Source of the DNA: an uncultured Verrucomicrobiales bacterium
Lineage (GTDB): Bacteria; Verrucomicrobiota; Verrucomicrobiia; Verrucomicrobiales; Akkermansiaceae
Length of the DNA stretch: 53,128 bases
Assembly (NCBI GenBank): GCA_937934595.1
Contig: CALGZA010000066.1
Location: 1 to 53,128 of the forward strand
Direction: 5' to 3'
The first letter of the stretch is position 1, and every line of letters starts with the position of its first letter. A program made the position numbers and the translations under genes. Below are positions 4,300 to 26,499 of this stretch, one piece after another. The notes below the pieces were generated by a model. It saw nothing but the letters and a program-made list of their open reading frames with translations. It was not told where the DNA came from and did no database searches.

Positions 4300-6942
4300 G
4301 TGAGCATGACCAAACAAAACGTAACAGAATTCTTACAACAGGAAGAGTGGAAAAAAGCATTCAGTGCAAGCGCCCTTTCCAACGGAAAAAAAATTGCTCA
4401 TAGCAGGCTAGTGGCCCAAGCCACTGCAAATAGCCTAGATACCGGAGACGTCGAATTAATAGGCTATGTCATCAATAAAGACGGACATCAACACGAAGCC
4501 ATTATCGCACTATGGAAAGAGAACGACGCAATCATGTTAGATGCATCATGCTCATGCGATCAACAAATCAACTGCCACCACAGCGCCGCAACTCTCATTC
4601 ATCTTGCCCGCGGCAATGGTGAACGCCTTGATAAAGCATTCGGTGATGTAGTCGGAGAAATACCACAACAAAATCTAACAACAAACATATCAGAAAATAC
4701 GCGGATCAACGAAAAAAGTATTAACAACAACAACCTAACATTCCTTCTTCGCATAGAACGAAAACCAGCAGGAGAAAGGCTCGCTTACCTTCCAGACATC
4801 TACGCACACGCATACGCTAAATATAATGATCAAATTTACACCCTAGACCCATCTGGCAATGTCCATCCCCCTCGCGACCGATCCGCAGAAATGCAAGCCC
4901 TCCAAACTCTATACGCCCTTGACCTCATCCCAGGAGCAGAAGAACCTCCACCCACGCTTAAAAAATTAGCGCATCCACCACACAAAGGCACACTTTTCGC
5001 TCCTGATAAACAACAATGGTCACACCCAGATTTCTACTGGCAACGATTCCAACACCAAGCAATCCCCGCCCTAGAAAAACGTGGCTGGACCATTCAGCTT
5101 TCACCACACGTTGGCCTGAAACCCCTCATCTTCAAAACAGATACCTGGAAAGCCGAAATAGTCGAAGAAGGAAAAGGCTGGTTCAACCTATCCGCAGGAT
5201 TCGAAATCGATGGTGAAAAATTCGAACTCCAACCAATCCTAGCTACACTCCTAGATAATAACTTCCTCGAACTCACTCAAGACCTGCCATCAGGACAAGA
5301 ATTCCTCGTCTTCCTCCCTGATGGAAGAGGACTCGCTCTTCCAGTAGGAAGATTCCGCCACATCCTCACCACGCTCGGCCAAATCCTCGAATTCAACTTC
5401 ACCGATGGCCCCATCAAATTGCAGAAACTAGAAGCAGCTCTCCTCGCAGGCGACGATGAAATAGATATCGAAGCTCCTGACGACATCGAACAAATCGCAG
5501 AAAAAATCATGTCGGCTCAGAAAATCAACACAGTACCACTGCCTCTCGGACTCAAAGCCACACTGCGTTCATACCAACTAGACGGCTTTTATTGGATGCA
5601 GTTCCTTTCCAGTTCAAACTTCAACGGCATCCTAGCCGATGACATGGGCCTTGGAAAAACCCTCCAAACACTAACCCACATCCTCGCAGAAAAAGAATCA
5701 GGCCGAGACCAAGGCCTACCCTCTCTCGTTGTCGCCCCAACAAGCGTCGTAGTCAATTGGCAACGTGAAGCAGCTAAATTCGCCCCATCACTCAAAGTCC
5801 TCATCCTACAAGGAGCTCAGCGCCACAAAAAATTCAATCAAATAGCAACATCTGACATCATCCTAAGCTCATTCGCTCTCATCCCCAGAGACCTTGAAAA
5901 CTTCAAAAAACACCACTTCCACCAAATCATCCTCGACGAAGCTCAGCACATCAAAAACCCCTCAGCCAAAATCTCACAAGCCGTCAGAGAACTTAAATCT
6001 AACCACCGCCTGTGCCTCTCAGGAACACCAATAGAAAATCACTTAGGCGAACTATGGAGCCAGTTTTCATTCCTCATGCCCGGACTCCTAGGTTCATCAG
6101 AAAGCTTCAACGAAAACTTCAGAAACCCCATCGAAAAAGAACACAACGAATCCAAACGTAACCTACTCAACGCAAAAGTAGGACCTCTCATCCTCAGAAG
6201 AACAAAAAACGACGTAGCGAAAGAACTACCCCCAAAAACAGAAATCCTTCACACTATCGAGCTACACACTGACCAAAAAGACCTATACGAAACAGTGCGC
6301 TCTACTATGGATAAACAAGTGCGACAAGCCATCATCGCCCGCGGCGGACAAGCTCAGATTGTCTTCCTAGACGCTCTGCTAAAACTAAGACAGATCTGCT
6401 GCCACCCCAGCCTTCTCTCTCAAAGCAATGATGCATCACAATCAGCTAAGTTTGACTACCTCATACAACTACTCGATACCCTCAGAAAAGAAAACCACCG
6501 CGTCCTCATCTTCTCACAGTTCACCTCCATGCTCAGCCTCATAGAAGACCACCTCAACCAAGAAAGCATCAGCTACCTCATCCTAACAGGCGCCACCAAA
6601 GACAGACAATCACTCGTAGAAAGATTCCAAGGCGGCGAAGCTGAAATCTTCCTTATATCCCTTAAAGCCGGTGGCACGGGACTAACCCTAACAGGAGCCG
6701 ATACCGTCATCCATTACGACCCATGGTGGAACCCAGCAGCCGAAAATCAAGCCACCGACAGAGCCTACAGAATCGGCCAAGATAAACCTGTAATGGTCCA
6801 CAAGCTCATCTGCCAAGGCACAGTCGAAGAACGCATCCAGCAAATGCAAAAACGCAAAAACACCCTAGCCGACAACATCTTAGACGGAAGCACACACTCC
6901 ATCGATCTAAACGAAGAAACAATGAAAAAACTCTTAGAATAG
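4300..6942 (+). CDS. SWIM zinc-finger SNF2-family helicase
   Basis: A DNA-dependent ATPase of the SNF2/Rad54 superfamily 2 class, expected to remodel protein-DNA complexes. Residues about 83-100 carry a SWIM finger (CSC...CHH...H). The helicase core has Walker A DDMGLGKT at about 447-454, the DEAQ box at about 546-549, SGTPIENH, and the C-terminal motifs FSQFTSML, KAGGTGLTLT and DRAYRIGQ. At 880 aa it is near the usual size of bacterial SWIM-SNF2 proteins, which typically have an uncharacterised middle region before the core. The GTG at 4300 is the longest start; an ATG at 4306 is equally likely. No Shine-Dalgarno is seen. The gene stands alone and its biological role is not fixed by context. 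Confidence 0.93.
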   Translation: MSMTKQNVTEFLQQEEWKKAFSASALSNGKKIAHSRLVAQATANSLDTGDVELIGYVINKDGHQHEAIIALWKENDAIMLDASCSCDQQINCHHSAATLIHLARGNGERLDKAFGDVVGEIPQQNLTTNISENTRINEKSINNNNLTFLLRIERKPAGERLAYLPDIYAHAYAKYNDQIYTLDPSGNVHPPRDRSAEMQALQTLYALDLIPGAEEPPPTLKKLAHPPHKGTLFAPDKQQWSHPDFYWQRFQHQAIPALEKRGWTIQLSPHVGLKPLIFKTDTWKAEIVEEGKGWFNLSAGFEIDGEKFELQPILATLLDNNFLELTQDLPSGQEFLVFLPDGRGLALPVGRFRHILTTLGQILEFNFTDGPIKLQKLEAALLAGDDEIDIEAPDDIEQIAEKIMSAQKINTVPLPLGLKATLRSYQLDGFYWMQFLSSSNFNGILADDMGLGKTLQTLTHILAEKESGRDQGLPSLVVAPTSVVVNWQREAAKFAPSLKVLILQGAQRHKKFNQIATSDIILSSFALIPRDLENFKKHHFHQIILDEAQHIKNPSAKISQAVRELKSNHRLCLSGTPIENHLGELWSQFSFLMPGLLGSSESFNENFRNPIEKEHNESKRNLLNAKVGPLILRRTKNDVAKELPPKTEILHTIELHTDQKDLYETVRSTMDKQVRQAIIARGGQAQIVFLDALLKLRQICCHPSLLSQSNDASQSAKFDYLIQLLDTLRKENHRVLIFSQFTSMLSLIEDHLNQESISYLILTGATKDRQSLVERFQGGEAEIFLISLKAGGTGLTLTGADTVIHYDPWWNPAAENQATDRAYRIGQDKPVMVHKLICQGTVEERIQQMQKRKNTLADNILDGSTHSIDLNEETMKKLLE

Positions 6943-21657: not shown

Positions 21658-22515
21658 CTACTCAGCTGAACGCCCTCTAGTCGTCGTCCCCAGCAAATCA
21701 TCATTAGGAACCATGATGAAGCCTCCATCCTTAGTCATCAACTTAGTCGTTACAGGCCCCACACCAGAAACCCTGGCCTCTTCACCTTCGAAAATAATAA
21801 TCGTCCCCACCTTATAAACATCCCTAGCATATACACCAGAAACAATCTGCGTCGCCATCCTTTTCAAACCTAGCCCCAAACAAATCGCCAAGCCTAGCCC
21901 CAAAGAAGCCAATATAATCTTCACCGAAGCATTCAACAACTCAGTCTCTATCTCCAGCTGGCTAAGAGCCACAGTTAGCACCAATATGAAAACAAAACCA
22001 AACAAGATATTAGCCAGCGCCTTCGCATAATCCAAACCTAAGTTATCAAGCGCCCTATACACAACTCCCTGCACCATATCTGCCACCATAAACCCTACCA
22101 ACATGATAATAGTTGCTATCAGAACCTTCGGTAAAAAAGTGAAAATCTGCTCAATGATGTTAGAGATATCCTCTACTCCCATCAACTTAGCAGCACTCTT
22201 GAAAATAAATAACATCACAACCCAAAACAATATCTTAGCTATCAGCTGACTAATACCATCTTTAACACCTATTTTCTGCAGCACTGAACCTATACCCACC
22301 TTATCCATTACCCCATCAAACTTAATACCCTTAAGAAATTTACCTACAAACTTCTTAAGTATCACAGCAACTATAAAACCCACTATTACTACCACCAGAC
22401 CACTGGCTATATCAGGTATACCAGAGATAATGTCATCCAGCATATCTCCAAAAGTTACCATCAGTTTGCTTAAAAATGACTCAAAATTGGCTAAAGTAAT
22501 CGTGCTTATATTCAT
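21658..22515 (-). CDS. Mechanosensitive channel (TM-helix/MscS-like)
   Basis: A 285-aa membrane protein. Long spans are seen at about residues 38-55 (GLVVVIVGFIVAVILKKF), 90-110, 130-155 and 170-215. Two 'conserved TM helix' repeats are recognisable (LVVVIVGFIVAVILKKF and LIATIIMLVGFMVADMVQG), each leading into an amphipathic Gly-rich segment. The C-terminus carries a small MscS-type beta domain (YKVGTIIIFEGEEARVSGVG ... GGFIMVPNDDLLGTTT). It resembles the CmpX/YnaI-like channels. Upstream on the same strand are an 83-aa protein and an ECF sigma factor, suggesting envelope-stress control. Confidence 0.85.
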   Translation of the reverse strand: MNISTITLANFESFLSKLMVTFGDMLDDIISGIPDIASGLVVVIVGFIVAVILKKFVGKFLKGIKFDGVMDKVGIGSVLQKIGVKDGISQLIAKILFWVVMLFIFKSAAKLMGVEDISNIIEQIFTFLPKVLIATIIMLVGFMVADMVQGVVYRALDNLGLDYAKALANILFGFVFILVLTVALSQLEIETELLNASVKIILASLGLGLAICLGLGLKRMATQIVSGVYARDVYKVGTIIIFEGEEARVSGVGPVTTKLMTKDGGFIMVPNDDLLGTTTRGRSAE

Positions 22516-22530
22516 AGTGTTTATTAAAAT

Positions 22531-22782
22531 TTATGCTTTGTAGTTTATATCTTTGTCCCCTATCACGCATCCAAATGTCGCTCCTACCAGACCATGGATA
22601 GCGGTCCCAAAACTCATGAATACAAAAGTCGTCGTATCCTTTGTTATATTCTCAAACATCGCGCGATCCGCAATCCGCTCAATACGCTCATAATTTATCT
22701 GACGCTCAACATGCCAGCCTGCTTTTTGGAAGAGATCATTGATTTTCGCCTCTTCAACTTGATATGTTTGGTCATTAATCAT
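22531..22782 (-). CDS. Small protein between sigma factor and channel, 83 aa
   Basis: I do not recognise it. It has an acidic/aromatic N-terminus (MINDQTYQVEEAKINDLF), a charged middle (NYERIERIADRAM) and a moderately hydrophobic C-terminal part (FVFMSFGTAIHGLVGATFG), which could be one membrane helix. It overlaps the sigma gene by 8 bases and precedes the channel gene by 15 bases, so it is surely in the same transcript. Position and size would suit an anti-sigma-like partner, but no zinc-binding anti-sigma motif (H-x3-C-x2-C) is present. Confidence 0.65.
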   Translation of the reverse strand: MINDQTYQVEEAKINDLFQKAGWHVERQINYERIERIADRAMFENITKDTTTFVFMSFGTAIHGLVGATFGCVIGDKDINYKA

Positions 22783-23380
22783 TAGTCTCTTTTGCGTAAA
22801 GTGTTTTAAACGAATCTAGCGCCCGGTATAACCTCATCTTAGCCGCAGATAACCCTATATCCATTACTTCTGAAATCTCCTGAATAGTCATCCCAGTAGT
22901 AAACTTCATAACAAGAATCTCGCGCTCCTTCTCCTTCATCTTGTTCATAGCACTCTCTACCTGCTCAGCTACCAATGAAGACTCAGGCTCCTCTACATGT
23001 CCCGCCTCCAGATCACCTACTTGCTTCTGATAAGCCTCCCTACCCTCTCGCTTCCTAGCCAGCTTAGATATTCGGTTTCGGCAATAATTTTGAACTATCT
23101 TATACAACCAGGTCTTAAATGCAGAACGACCTTCAAACTGATGGATCTTATGAAAAACCTGAATCATAGCATCCTGAGCCACCTCCTCTGCATCCTGTGA
23201 AGAACCTATATACTTAGCACAAGTATTGTATACTAACCCCTCATAACGCCTCAAAAGCTCACGGTAAGCAGTAAGATCAGAGGGTAACTCATCTTTACAC
23301 ATAGCCACTATCTCAGAATCAGATAACTCCTCTAATCCCTCGATGCGTCTTGATGCTAATCTTCTCAGTGCTTCAACCAT
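22775..23380 (-). CDS. ECF RNA polymerase sigma factor
   Basis: A 201-aa sigma-70 family ECF factor. The N-terminal tail is about 35 residues long. Region 2 runs through LLRRYEGLVYNTCAKYIGSS, QDAEEVAQDAMIQVFHKI and SAFKTWLYKIVQNYCRNR. A charged linker follows, then region 4 (MKEKEREILVMKFTTGMTIQEISEVM ... SAAKMRLYRALDSF). It heads a three-gene operon with an 83-aa protein and a mechanosensitive channel, divergent from trmL. A canonical ECF auto-promoter cannot be assigned by eye in the 135-base upstream gap. Confidence 0.93.
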   Translation of the reverse strand: MVEALRRLASRRIEGLEELSDSEIVAMCKDELPSDLTAYRELLRRYEGLVYNTCAKYIGSSQDAEEVAQDAMIQVFHKIHQFEGRSAFKTWLYKIVQNYCRNRISKLARKREGREAYQKQVGDLEAGHVEEPESSLVAEQVESAMNKMKEKEREILVMKFTTGMTIQEISEVMDIGLSAAKMRLYRALDSFKTLYAKETND

Positions 23381-23515
23381 ACCAATATCTTAATACAAAA
23401 GCTCGAGCGCCTTCGTAATTCAACCATGAGTCAAAATAAACAAATATGCAAAAAAAATCTACCTAACGACCATTTTACTTTGTAATTCATTAACAGAAAT
23501 TTTACCCTGCATCCC

Positions 23516-24041: not shown

Positions 24042-24191
24042 ATGAAAATATACCGCCTCACTGCCATCGCCATCCTCTGCTCACTTCTACAGTCTTGTAA
24101 TGCACCCATAGTCAACAAGGCACTCGGAGCCCCCGCAAGCATCATCAACAAAGTAGCTGGACCCATCATCGGACCACTACTAGGACGCTAA
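24042..24191 (+). CDS. Small predicted lipoprotein, 49 aa
   Basis: A short + strand gene reading MKIYRLTAIAILCSLL then QSCNAPIVNK, i.e. a basic n-region, a hydrophobic core and a lipobox ending LQSC with Cys at residue 19. The mature part is only about 30 residues, rich in Pro/Ile/Gly and ending GPIIGPLLGR. Codon use (ATC, CTC, GCC) matches + strand neighbours. Its stop overlaps the last bases of the convergent gene 24188-24943. No homologue comes to mind; some small entericidin-like lipoproteins have a similar build. Confidence 0.6.
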   Translation: MKIYRLTAIAILCSLLQSCNAPIVNKALGAPASIINKVAGPIIGPLLGR

Positions 24192-24943
24192 TCCCGCATC
24201 ACCTCTAGTAACCTCTCCCTCAGCTGTCTTGCTGCCTGCATAGACAGCTCAACCTGTCCTGAAGTAATTTGGTCGCTCACAGACTTGTGCGGATAAGCCA
24301 ATGCAGGATGCTGAAGCACAGCTCCATCCTCGCGCCAAGAAAGCGCATCATTAACCGTAAAATCACCCCCTGCCCTGATGATCGTCACAGAATCCAGTTT
24401 CTCCTTCTTGCGTCGTAAATCCCTCTCATCCCCATCATAACCCATCGGAAGAAAAACAAACCTCAAAGTATGACCAAAATTCTTCTCACCCGCTACACTC
24501 TGAATAACAGCAGTCGGAATAGCAATCAAAGAAGATAAAGCCACCTGATTCAACTCATTCAGCTCCACTACCACCACCGTTAACCTCCCCTCATCATCTC
24601 CCTTTATATCATAATAACCTAAATTCCCCTCACCACTTAGCGTTGGAATTTTAGTAAGATAGTTATTTATACCCAAAGTACTAGAAATGTGCTGCAAATA
24701 ATAATCCCCCCTCTTGCCCCGTGAAGCAAAAACCTTTTCCATATCATCCTGAAAACTCTCCTCGTTCAGCACCTGAGAGACCCTATATTGATCCAAATTA
24801 AACTTATCCGCCTCTCTTTTCCTAAAGTTAATATTACTAGCCACCACACCCACTGCCAAACCTATAGGAATAAGCATCAGTAGCCACATAAACTTCTTCG
24901 CGCTCTTAGAATCCGCCAGATCCTGCTTAGTATCATCTTCCAT
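24188..24943 (-). CDS. Membrane-anchored protein, possible degenerate M28 fold
   Basis: A 251-aa protein with a short cytoplasmic charged N-terminus, one membrane span at about residues 18-35 (FMWLLMLIPIGLAVGVVAS) and a periplasmic domain. Parts of the domain (FASRGKRGDYYLQHISSTLG, TVVVVELNELNQVALSSLIA, LRFVFLPMGYDGDERD) run parallel to M28 aminopeptidases. However, the zinc-binding His/Asp/Glu set cannot be found, so a non-catalytic relative is possible. It starts 10 bases downstream of lpxB and is likely the last gene of the tgt-yajC-lpxB operon. The family call is weak. Confidence 0.6.
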   Translation of the reverse strand: MEDDTKQDLADSKSAKKFMWLLMLIPIGLAVGVVASNINFRKREADKFNLDQYRVSQVLNEESFQDDMEKVFASRGKRGDYYLQHISSTLGINNYLTKIPTLSGEGNLGYYDIKGDDEGRLTVVVVELNELNQVALSSLIAIPTAVIQSVAGEKNFGHTLRFVFLPMGYDGDERDLRRKKEKLDSVTIIRAGGDFTVNDALSWREDGAVLQHPALAYPHKSVSDQITSGQVELSMQAARQLRERLLEVMRD

Positions 24944-24953
24944 CTCTTTAAAA

Positions 24954-26099
24954 TTACCCTATCGTAGAAATAACCTCTTTCGCAGCCCTCATATGACACC
25001 CAGGCTCACCCAGCTGAGACACAGCCTCAGCCATCTCCCTCTGCACCTTTTCCGTATGATCACCATCCTTTATAAACTTCTCCAAAGCCTCCTTTATATG
25101 CAATGGATCAGCATCACCCTGGATAAACTCATCCACCACCGTCTTCCCAGCCAGTATGTTTACTAAACCTATATGATCTATCTTGACCAGCACCTTACCC
25201 AGCAAATAAGTAGGCAAGGCTATCTTATAAACCAAACAATAAGGCAAACCATACCAAGCCGCCTCCAAAGTAGCCGTCCCACTCGCTATCACACCACATC
25301 GCGCCTTCTGCATCAACTTATGATTGCCACCATCCTCCCTACTCGTAATCTTAACATAATCTCCCCTCAACTTCGCCTTCCCCATCAGCTTATGCATCAA
25401 CTCACCTAACTTCTCAGTAGCTGCAGGAGCCTCAAACCTCAAATTTTCATCCTCATTATGAAGCCTACGTGCAGCCTCCAGCATCACCGGAAACAACTTA
25501 GATATCTCTCGCTCCCTACTACCAGGAAACAAACCTATCAAATGAAGATCCCTCGCCACATCTATCTTATTCTCCTCTAATTCATCAACTATAGGATGAC
25601 CCACAAACGTCGTAGACAAACCTGAATCCTCATACAAAGGCTTCTCAAAAGGCAATATACACAACATCTTATCCAAAACAGCAGCCATCTTAGGAATCCT
25701 GCCCTTATTCCACGCCCATACCTGTGGACTCACATAATAAATGATCTTAATACCAGGCAGCGCCTCCCTCACTGCCCTAGCCATCCTAAGATTGTAACCA
25801 GGATAATCAATAAGCACCAATGCATCAGGCCTTATCTCCCTCAACTCTGCTAGCATCGAACGAAACTGCTTCTTAAACCAAGCATAATGCTTCAACACCT
25901 CAACCAGCCCCATCACCGCAGACTTCTCCACCCAGTCCCGCACTGACTCCCCCCCAGCTTCCCGCATCGCAGGGCCTCCAGCTCCGTAAAAGCTTACCCC
26001 TCCCTGACCAAGCTCAGACTCAATGGCGTGCATGAGCTCAGCTCCATGGGTATCCCCACTGACTTCGCCCGAGATCAGATAGATCTTCTTAGCACTCAT
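24954..26099 (-). CDS. lpxB: Lipid-A-disaccharide synthase
   Basis: A GT-B glycosyltransferase joining UDP-2,3-diacylglucosamine and lipid X to make the lipid A disaccharide. Signatures are IYLISGEVSGDTHGAELM, FYGAGGPAMREAGGE, AVMGLVEVLKHY, LIDYPGYNLRMAR, YYVSPQVWAWNKGRI, FEKPLYE, TFVGHPIVDEL, and LFPGSRERE with the late ASGTATLEAA. The length of 381 aa is standard. It shows the host builds lipopolysaccharide-type outer membrane. It lies 70 bases downstream of yajC. Confidence 0.96.
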   Translation of the reverse strand: MSAKKIYLISGEVSGDTHGAELMHAIESELGQGGVSFYGAGGPAMREAGGESVRDWVEKSAVMGLVEVLKHYAWFKKQFRSMLAELREIRPDALVLIDYPGYNLRMARAVREALPGIKIIYYVSPQVWAWNKGRIPKMAAVLDKMLCILPFEKPLYEDSGLSTTFVGHPIVDELEENKIDVARDLHLIGLFPGSREREISKLFPVMLEAARRLHNEDENLRFEAPAATEKLGELMHKLMGKAKLRGDYVKITSREDGGNHKLMQKARCGVIASGTATLEAAWYGLPYCLVYKIALPTYLLGKVLVKIDHIGLVNILAGKTVVDEFIQGDADPLHIKEALEKFIKDGDHTEKVQREMAEAVSQLGEPGCHMRAAKEVISTIG

Positions 26100-26169
26100 T
26101 AATTTGATTTAAAGCATTTCTTCTAAAAGCTCAACGCAATTATTCCTATAATAAGATAAGCTACACCCA

Positions 26170-26499
26170 CTACTTGTCAGTTTTCTCATCCTTACCACCC
26201 TCTGCATCCTTTGTAAGAACACTCGCAATAGCACTTTTATCATACTTCACAAAATTCCCCTCAGATATCCTCAATGACACAGTCGTATCACTTATCGAAT
26301 TAACAGTAGCATGCATACCTCCTATAGTAACAACATTGTCACCCTTCTTTAAATTAGCCTGACGCTCTCTTAGCGCCTTAGCACGCTTCTGCTGCGGACG
26401 TATCATCACCACCCACATGATGACAAAAAGTAATGCAAAAAATAAGATTTGCGGCAAAGGATTATTCGGACTATTCGCTATGATTTCAAATGTGTTCAT
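26170..26499 (-). CDS. yajC: Preprotein translocase subunit YajC
   Basis: A 109-aa single-span inner-membrane protein of the SecDF-YajC complex. The span at about residues 17-36 (ILFFALLFVIMWVVMIRPQQ) ends in the family hallmark RPQQKRAK. The small soluble domain has KKGDNVVTIGGMHATVNSIS and TVSLRISEGNFVKYDKSAIA. It follows tgt by 3 bases; the tgt-yajC pairing is widespread in bacteria. secD/secF are not in the window. The C-terminus is a charged tail. Confidence 0.95.
   Translation of the reverse strand: MNTFEIIANSPNNPLPQILFFALLFVIMWVVMIRPQQKRAKALRERQANLKKGDNVVTIGGMHATVNSISDTTVSLRISEGNFVKYDKSAIASVLTKDAEGGKDEKTDK

Follow-up and report, generated by a model that had tools for sequence, protein, structure and literature searches.

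SigX of Pseudomonas, according to available excerpts of a review, is the only studied ECF sigma factor placed under a mechanosensing complex; with the channel CmpX and the small protein CfrX, a putative soluble anti-sigma factor, it makes up group ECF102, and a mechanosensing model with CfrX as the anti-sigma factor has already been proposed (PMC8999054). Excerpts of a further paper name CfrX and CmpX as candidate regulators of SigX, place cfrX-cmpX under SigX control and report that SigX responds to membrane-altering treatments (PMC7641640). SigX is also described as influencing membrane fluidity and genes of the envelope, with responses to cold shock and valinomycin (PMC7641640; PMC10986583). 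In the excerpts available, control of its activity is called unknown or atypical (PMC7641640, PMC3832394), and a 2013 paper found SigX active under the growth conditions used and sigX not clustered with an anti-sigma gene (PMC3832394). Our literature search, which covered many sources in excerpt, returned no description of the trio outside Pseudomonas; earlier notice in the Staron 2009 or Casas-Pastor 2021 classifications is possible. A second known arrangement is that of the class I anti-sigma factors (ASDI; RsrA/ChrR/RseA type), whose small gene lies right after the ECF sigma gene and is probably co-transcribed with it; the excerpted literature indicates that the zinc motif is not obligatory for every ASDI (PMC7406223).

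We analyzed a locus in a window of 53,128 nucleotides, the whole stretch of DNA under study, from an uncultured Verrucomicrobiales bacterium. An earlier note on this DNA had reported a trio made up of an ECF sigma gene, an 83-amino-acid gene sharing 8 bases with it, and a channel gene. The coordinates proved correct, and all three genes lie on the minus strand, with the following features:

23448-23457, minus strand: T8GC element, some 70 bases ahead of the sigma gene (alignment of close relatives)
22775-23380, minus strand: ECF sigma factor of the SigX lineage, 201 aa (Pfam, NCBIfam, best matches in Pseudomonas, tree)
22775-22782, minus strand: overlap of the sigma and small genes, 8 bases
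22531-22782, minus strand: CfrX-like small protein, 83 aa (adjoins the sigma ortholog in 21/21 genomes; hhalign against gammaproteobacterial CfrX)
22648-22782, minus strand: small protein, N-terminal part (roughly residues 1-45, including RIERIADRA); proposed sigma-binding part, retained without the channel
22534-22635, minus strand: small protein, C-terminal part, hydrophobic/amphipathic (roughly residues 50-83); proposed to act at the channel or membrane
21658-22515, minus strand: CmpX-type MscS-like channel, 285 aa (two PF05552 stretches; best matches in gammaproteobacterial genomes)

The 8-base overlap likely results in translational coupling, and 15 bases separate the small-gene stop from the channel start. 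The T8 and GC of the upstream element are invariant in all five aligned close relatives, and this element may be part of a promoter or an autoregulation site; a promoter and regulon search yielded nothing beyond it. Neighbors of the locus are a SpoU-type methyltransferase gene and, by eye, a gene resembling a tyrosine recombinase. Upstream (24188-26499, minus strand) lie genes for LpxB, YajC, and a 251-amino-acid protein without a Pfam match, the last of which also precedes the sigma gene in the nearest relatives (L061-L064).

With an orthologous ECF sigma factor, a CmpX-type channel, and a CfrX-like protein of about 80 amino acids that is encoded directly before the channel and has no zinc motif, the locus resembles SigX-CfrX-CmpX of Pseudomonas aeruginosa and P. 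fluorescens. The gene order differs: it is sigX-cfrX-cmpX in the window, where no oprF adjoins the trio, and cfrX-cmpX-sigX-oprF in Pseudomonas. In P. protegens FD6 (locus L140), cfrX (4835-5086) and cmpX (5083-5913) are followed by sigX (6001-6591) and an OmpA-like gene taken as oprF. The small-channel-sigma order was found at 95 of 96 gammaproteobacterial loci, of which 80 are closely similar loci from Pseudomonas; at the one deviating locus (L180), a gene is divided between contigs and the sequence covers its far half. The small gene thus stands directly before the channel gene in both phyla, while the position of the sigma gene changes: in the window the small gene overlaps it, whereas in Pseudomonas cmpX separates cfrX from sigX. 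The window trio further departs from that of Pseudomonas in its phylum, in a sigma factor that scores under the NCBIfam SigX cut-off, and in the reduced, channel-less forms found among its relatives.

As in the ASDI arrangement, the small gene directly follows the ECF sigma gene and is probably co-transcribed with it; the earlier note was right to place it, with its 8-base overlap, in the anti-sigma position. Unlike ASDI, the protein has no Pfam anti-sigma match (nor any other Pfam match), measures about 80 amino acids with a C-terminal hydrophobic/amphipathic helix, and is partnered with an MscS-like channel. A direct reading also bore out the note's statement that a zinc anti-sigma motif is missing: the protein contains no Hx3Cx2C and only one cysteine.

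Orthology of the sigma factor and the channel

The window sigma factor carries the Pfam domains Sigma70_r2 (E = 4.4e-18) and Sigma70_r4_2 (E = 8.6e-13). Its top NCBIfam model is SigX (NF007222, E = 2.1e-43), at 148 bits where the cut-off is 194; it is related to this narrow equivalog model and not a member of it. SigX was the top match in all three Pseudomonas genomes searched (E of about 1e-35, 39% identity; next ECF at 2e-16), and the sigma factors were reciprocal best matches. In Pseudomonadota, 15 of 299 genomes carry SigX at E ≤ 1e-25. In a tree of 60 rows, verrucomicrobial and gammaproteobacterial SigX formed one clade (support 99/97) that excluded 18 of the 19 other ECF rows; the remaining one (VP_L060), a paralog on a very long branch, falls within the clade by a join that is unsure. 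One row of this tree (VX_L212) is a duplicate entry of another (VX_L202) and is absent from a later tree. These two loci belong to G961:C84 (L202, L212), where about 0.6 kb separates a divergent pair of SigX-like sigma genes, the second with neither a small gene nor a channel detected alongside it. A plasmid tblastn search with the window sigma factor returned 229 records, all below 60% identity, with generic ECFs among the 30 matches listed.

The window channel contains two PF05552 stretches (3.4e-17, Pfam), and its beta-domain falls just below the Pfam threshold (19.1 bits; cut-off 20.2). In six of six gammaproteobacterial genomes its top match was the channel adjoining SigX (E = 4e-42 to 9e-49), with the best non-CmpX match at 1.1e-17. 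Together, these searches show that the sigma factor is a clear ortholog of SigX and the channel a clear ortholog of CmpX, the E-values of the best matches being lower than those of the next by some 20 or more orders of magnitude.

Phmmer comparison with MscS chains (E down to 7.2e-9) covered the pore-lining transmembrane (TM) helix and the beta domain, and channel residues 125-275 of 285 aligned to residues 25-171 of 286 of E. coli MscS, ending 10 residues before the channel does. While TM helices and beta domain are alignable, the window channel differs from E. coli MscS in having about 120 additional N-terminal residues with more TM helices and in stopping before the alpha/beta vestibule. 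This C-terminal vestibule is absent from both the MscS alignment and the predicted structure, a low-confidence model with only a short helix past the beta domain (pLDDT 66; Foldseek MscS matches at TM-scores of only about 0.3). For want of a vestibule, the beta domain would be exposed.

Conservation of the trio and loss of the channel

Of 58 genomes sampled from the genus, family, and order of this bacterium, 21 have a sigma ortholog (E ≤ 2.0e-48; best remaining match 1.1e-21) and 20 a channel ortholog, all 20 being among the 21 (Fisher 1e-14, uncorrected for relatedness). Small-protein homologs were detected in 18 genomes (E ≤ 2.1e-7), and in the other three with a sigma ortholog (G053, G056, G048) the ORF at this place is divergent or shortened; a small ORF therefore follows the sigma gene at all 21 loci and is shortened in one. 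The order sigma-small-channel holds in 20 of the 21 genomes, G048 being without a channel; the locus of G008 is split over two contigs, and its order was read as far as the contig ends permit. At 19 of 20 loci with both ends readable, the sigma stop and the small-gene start lie no more than 11 bases apart, often with a 4-base ATGA overlap, and the sole exception (L072) hinges on the choice of start codon. The earlier note had staked its reading on conservation of the trio and on the small gene accompanying orthologous sigma genes, and accompany them it does, at 21/21 loci here and, in family f2, at all but 1 of 27 (G977).

The trio is rare in wider samples. A sigma factor at E ≤ 1e-25 was found in 5 of 387 genomes sampled from the phylum, and the SigX model matched in 3/188 genomes of the class and 0/14 control genomes. 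One of the five phylum hits (G571, 1.6e-26) was rejected as an ortholog: its neighborhood is different, with a larger next gene that has a TM segment and with no CfrX-like gene or channel. Where it occurs, the trio has been kept together by evolution and is not a chance association.

Within family f2 (74 genomes), the sigma factor is present in 27 genomes, the channel in 22 by profile, and both in 21. Six genomes have the sigma factor only: G048, G980, G981, and G982, which belong to one genus, together with G979 and G977. A shortened small gene persists at five of these six loci; G977 has neither small gene nor channel and is the only such case among the 27. Separately, G978 carries a truncated CmpX-type channel ORF (L213, 4290-4877), apparently a decaying remnant, with no SigX or small gene nearby.

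We compared 42 small proteins with an 83-position family model built from channel-bearing rows only. All 37 proteins encoded beside a channel align through model position 76-83, whereas all 5 channel-less proteins align only over positions 1-43/49. The latter retain the RIxRI..RA stretch along with the helix region at the N terminus and lack the (K/E)(D/E)(S/T)xxF stretch and the C-terminal helix. This helix is hydrophobic in most channel-bearing proteins; that it always is so had to be rejected, as four channel-bearing loci of g17 (L203, L205, L207, L211) have low-hydropathy, amphipathic-looking tails, and our claim on the C-terminal part is limited to the presence of the block. A frameshift as the cause of the lost tail was likewise rejected, no recognizable tail being visible by eye in the three forward frames past the small start at the channel-less loci. 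At four loci of the channel-less genus g27 (L199, L201, L204, L208), a second RIxRI stretch replaces the C-terminal helix. The tree implies three channel changes, only one of which is forced by well-supported branches; the truncation rests on one or two loss events.

That truncation tracks channel absence suggests a bridge, in which the N-terminal part may contact the sigma factor and the C-terminal helix the channel or membrane; an action of the N-terminal part on the sigma factor is proposed because this part is retained at channel-less loci and because the small gene overlaps the sigma gene. Alternatively, the small protein could be an accessory subunit of the channel, the sigma factor merely driving expression of both without being physically regulated. 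Such a role would explain why the small gene always lies just before the channel gene in both phyla while the sigma gene moves, and excerpted work lists cfrX-cmpX as SigX targets in Pseudomonas (PMC7641640). We nevertheless consider it unlikely: the N-terminal part persists beside the sigma gene at five loci in genomes where profile searches found no channel anywhere, which implies a role independent of the channel, and its overlap with the sigma gene in Verrucomicrobia is consistent with a partner of the sigma factor. The small protein might instead aid the sigma factor, as a stabilizer, chaperone, or membrane-localizing activator, and not inhibit it. The same genomic data would fit, and in the excerpts available SigX is reported unstable on overexpression (PMC7641640) and cmpX deletion lowers sigX transcription in P. 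aeruginosa (PMC10965496); however, gene position and coupling are typical of anti-sigma factors, and the excerpted literature on the system holds no activator precedent that we could find, making a helper somewhat less probable still than an accessory subunit.

Relation of the small protein to CfrX

Alone, the 83-amino-acid protein is predicted by AlphaFold at a pLDDT of 41, with three possible helices; the C-terminal part reaches a maximum 19-residue hydropathy of 1.46. The gene has a dN/dS of 0.02-0.08 (from the 3 of 15 pairs with unsaturated dS). Its last four residues (22534-22545) follow the pattern (N/D)Y(K/R)x in 17/17 rows of family f1 (e.g., NYKA, DYRV, DYKP), possibly a docking site or a degron.

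Identity between the verrucomicrobial small protein and CfrX is about 10%. Comparison by hhalign of the verrucomicrobial family (37 rows: the five channel-less proteins and L200 left out, L215 added) with the gammaproteobacterial CfrX family gave scores of 25.3 and 30.0 in the two directions, with probabilities of 34% and 69%. As controls, 500 column shuffles scored no higher than 17.2, and 73 segments taken from the sigma and channel alignments no higher than 14.0. An earlier comparison with 18 verrucomicrobial rows had been weak (probability 11%; score 20.9 versus 20.5 for the best of 300 shuffles) and improved with 37. With HMMER, the gammaproteobacterial model found one verrucomicrobial protein (L069) at E = 8.5e-4, and the verrucomicrobial model matched gammaproteobacterial proteins only at E ≥ 1.4. 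Because the profile scores exceed the controls and the proteins share a similar size, the position before the channel, and orthologous partners, we regard the 83-amino-acid protein as a remote CfrX homolog, an assignment that is unproved but very likely. An unrelated protein independently recruited to the corresponding position next to SigX and CmpX would account for the low identity and the modest hhalign probabilities, but given the margin over shuffled and real-protein controls, the similar size, the shared pre-channel place, and the orthologous partners, we give it little credence.

The trio is therefore the known SigX-CfrX-CmpX system in another phylum, with a permuted order and with reduced channel-less forms. 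The suggestion that the small protein is a new type of sigma partner fell, since excerpted papers describe the same trio in Pseudomonas with a mechanosensing proposal (PMC8999054, PMC7641640); what stood of the earlier reading is a small protein that lacks a zinc motif, occupies the anti-sigma position and is linked to a tension-sensing channel.

Proposed mechanism

We favor, with moderate confidence, a divergent SigX-CfrX-CmpX envelope-stress system of permuted order, in which the small protein holds the sigma factor and is tied to the membrane or channel, so that tension controls the sigma factor. Gene order and evolution link the three genes. Within the 83-amino-acid protein, the N-terminal part would hold the sigma factor, and the C-terminal helix would attach the complex either to the membrane or to the channel, whose beta-domain would be exposed for lack of a vestibule. 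The channel, with its extra N-terminal TM helices, would pass membrane tension to the small protein; on a change in tension or fluidity, its movement would free or license the sigma factor, which, to go by Pseudomonas, would activate genes of the envelope and probably also the operon that encodes it. Both the anti-sigma action and the release by tension are our reading of gene order and sequence.

The model is suggested by the orthology of the sigma factor and channel, by a small-protein profile match exceeding 500/500 shuffles and 73/73 segments, by co-occurrence (20/21 and 21/27), by the constant place of the small gene before the channel gene in both phyla, and by truncation in 5/5 channel-less versus 0/37 channel-bearing proteins. 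Published work adds the control of cfrX-cmpX by SigX, its response to membrane-altering treatments (PMC7641640) and the existing mechanosensing proposal for CfrX (PMC8999054). Counting against it are a putative CfrX link that rests on profiles at about 10% identity, a sigma factor without partners in G977, the few loss events, and the 2013 description of SigX as active during growth and not clustered with an anti-sigma gene (PMC3832394). In addition, the excerpted P. aeruginosa results, in which overexpressing cmpX had no effect on the expression of sigX or cfrX and deleting it had the effect given above (PMC10965496), fit poorly with simple release by the channel.

More tentatively, CfrX-family proteins in general could be two-part bridges, in which a short N-terminal part engages a SigX-type sigma factor and the C-terminal helix, a separable element, docks on a vestibule-less MscS-like channel, whose movement would control transcription directly; on loss of the channel, the docking part would be trimmed, leaving a plain soluble sigma partner.

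Relative to Pseudomonas, what is new is the lineage, the permuted order, and the natural experiment of the channel-less loci. Through the permuted order, the CfrX homolog comes to occupy the position that is classical for anti-sigma factors; its overlap with the sigma gene here strengthens the case for CfrX as a sigma partner. The channel-less relatives supply natural minimal proteins that separate the putative sigma-binding part from the putative channel-binding part, and these make the idea of a mechanosensitive channel acting on a sigma factor directly testable.
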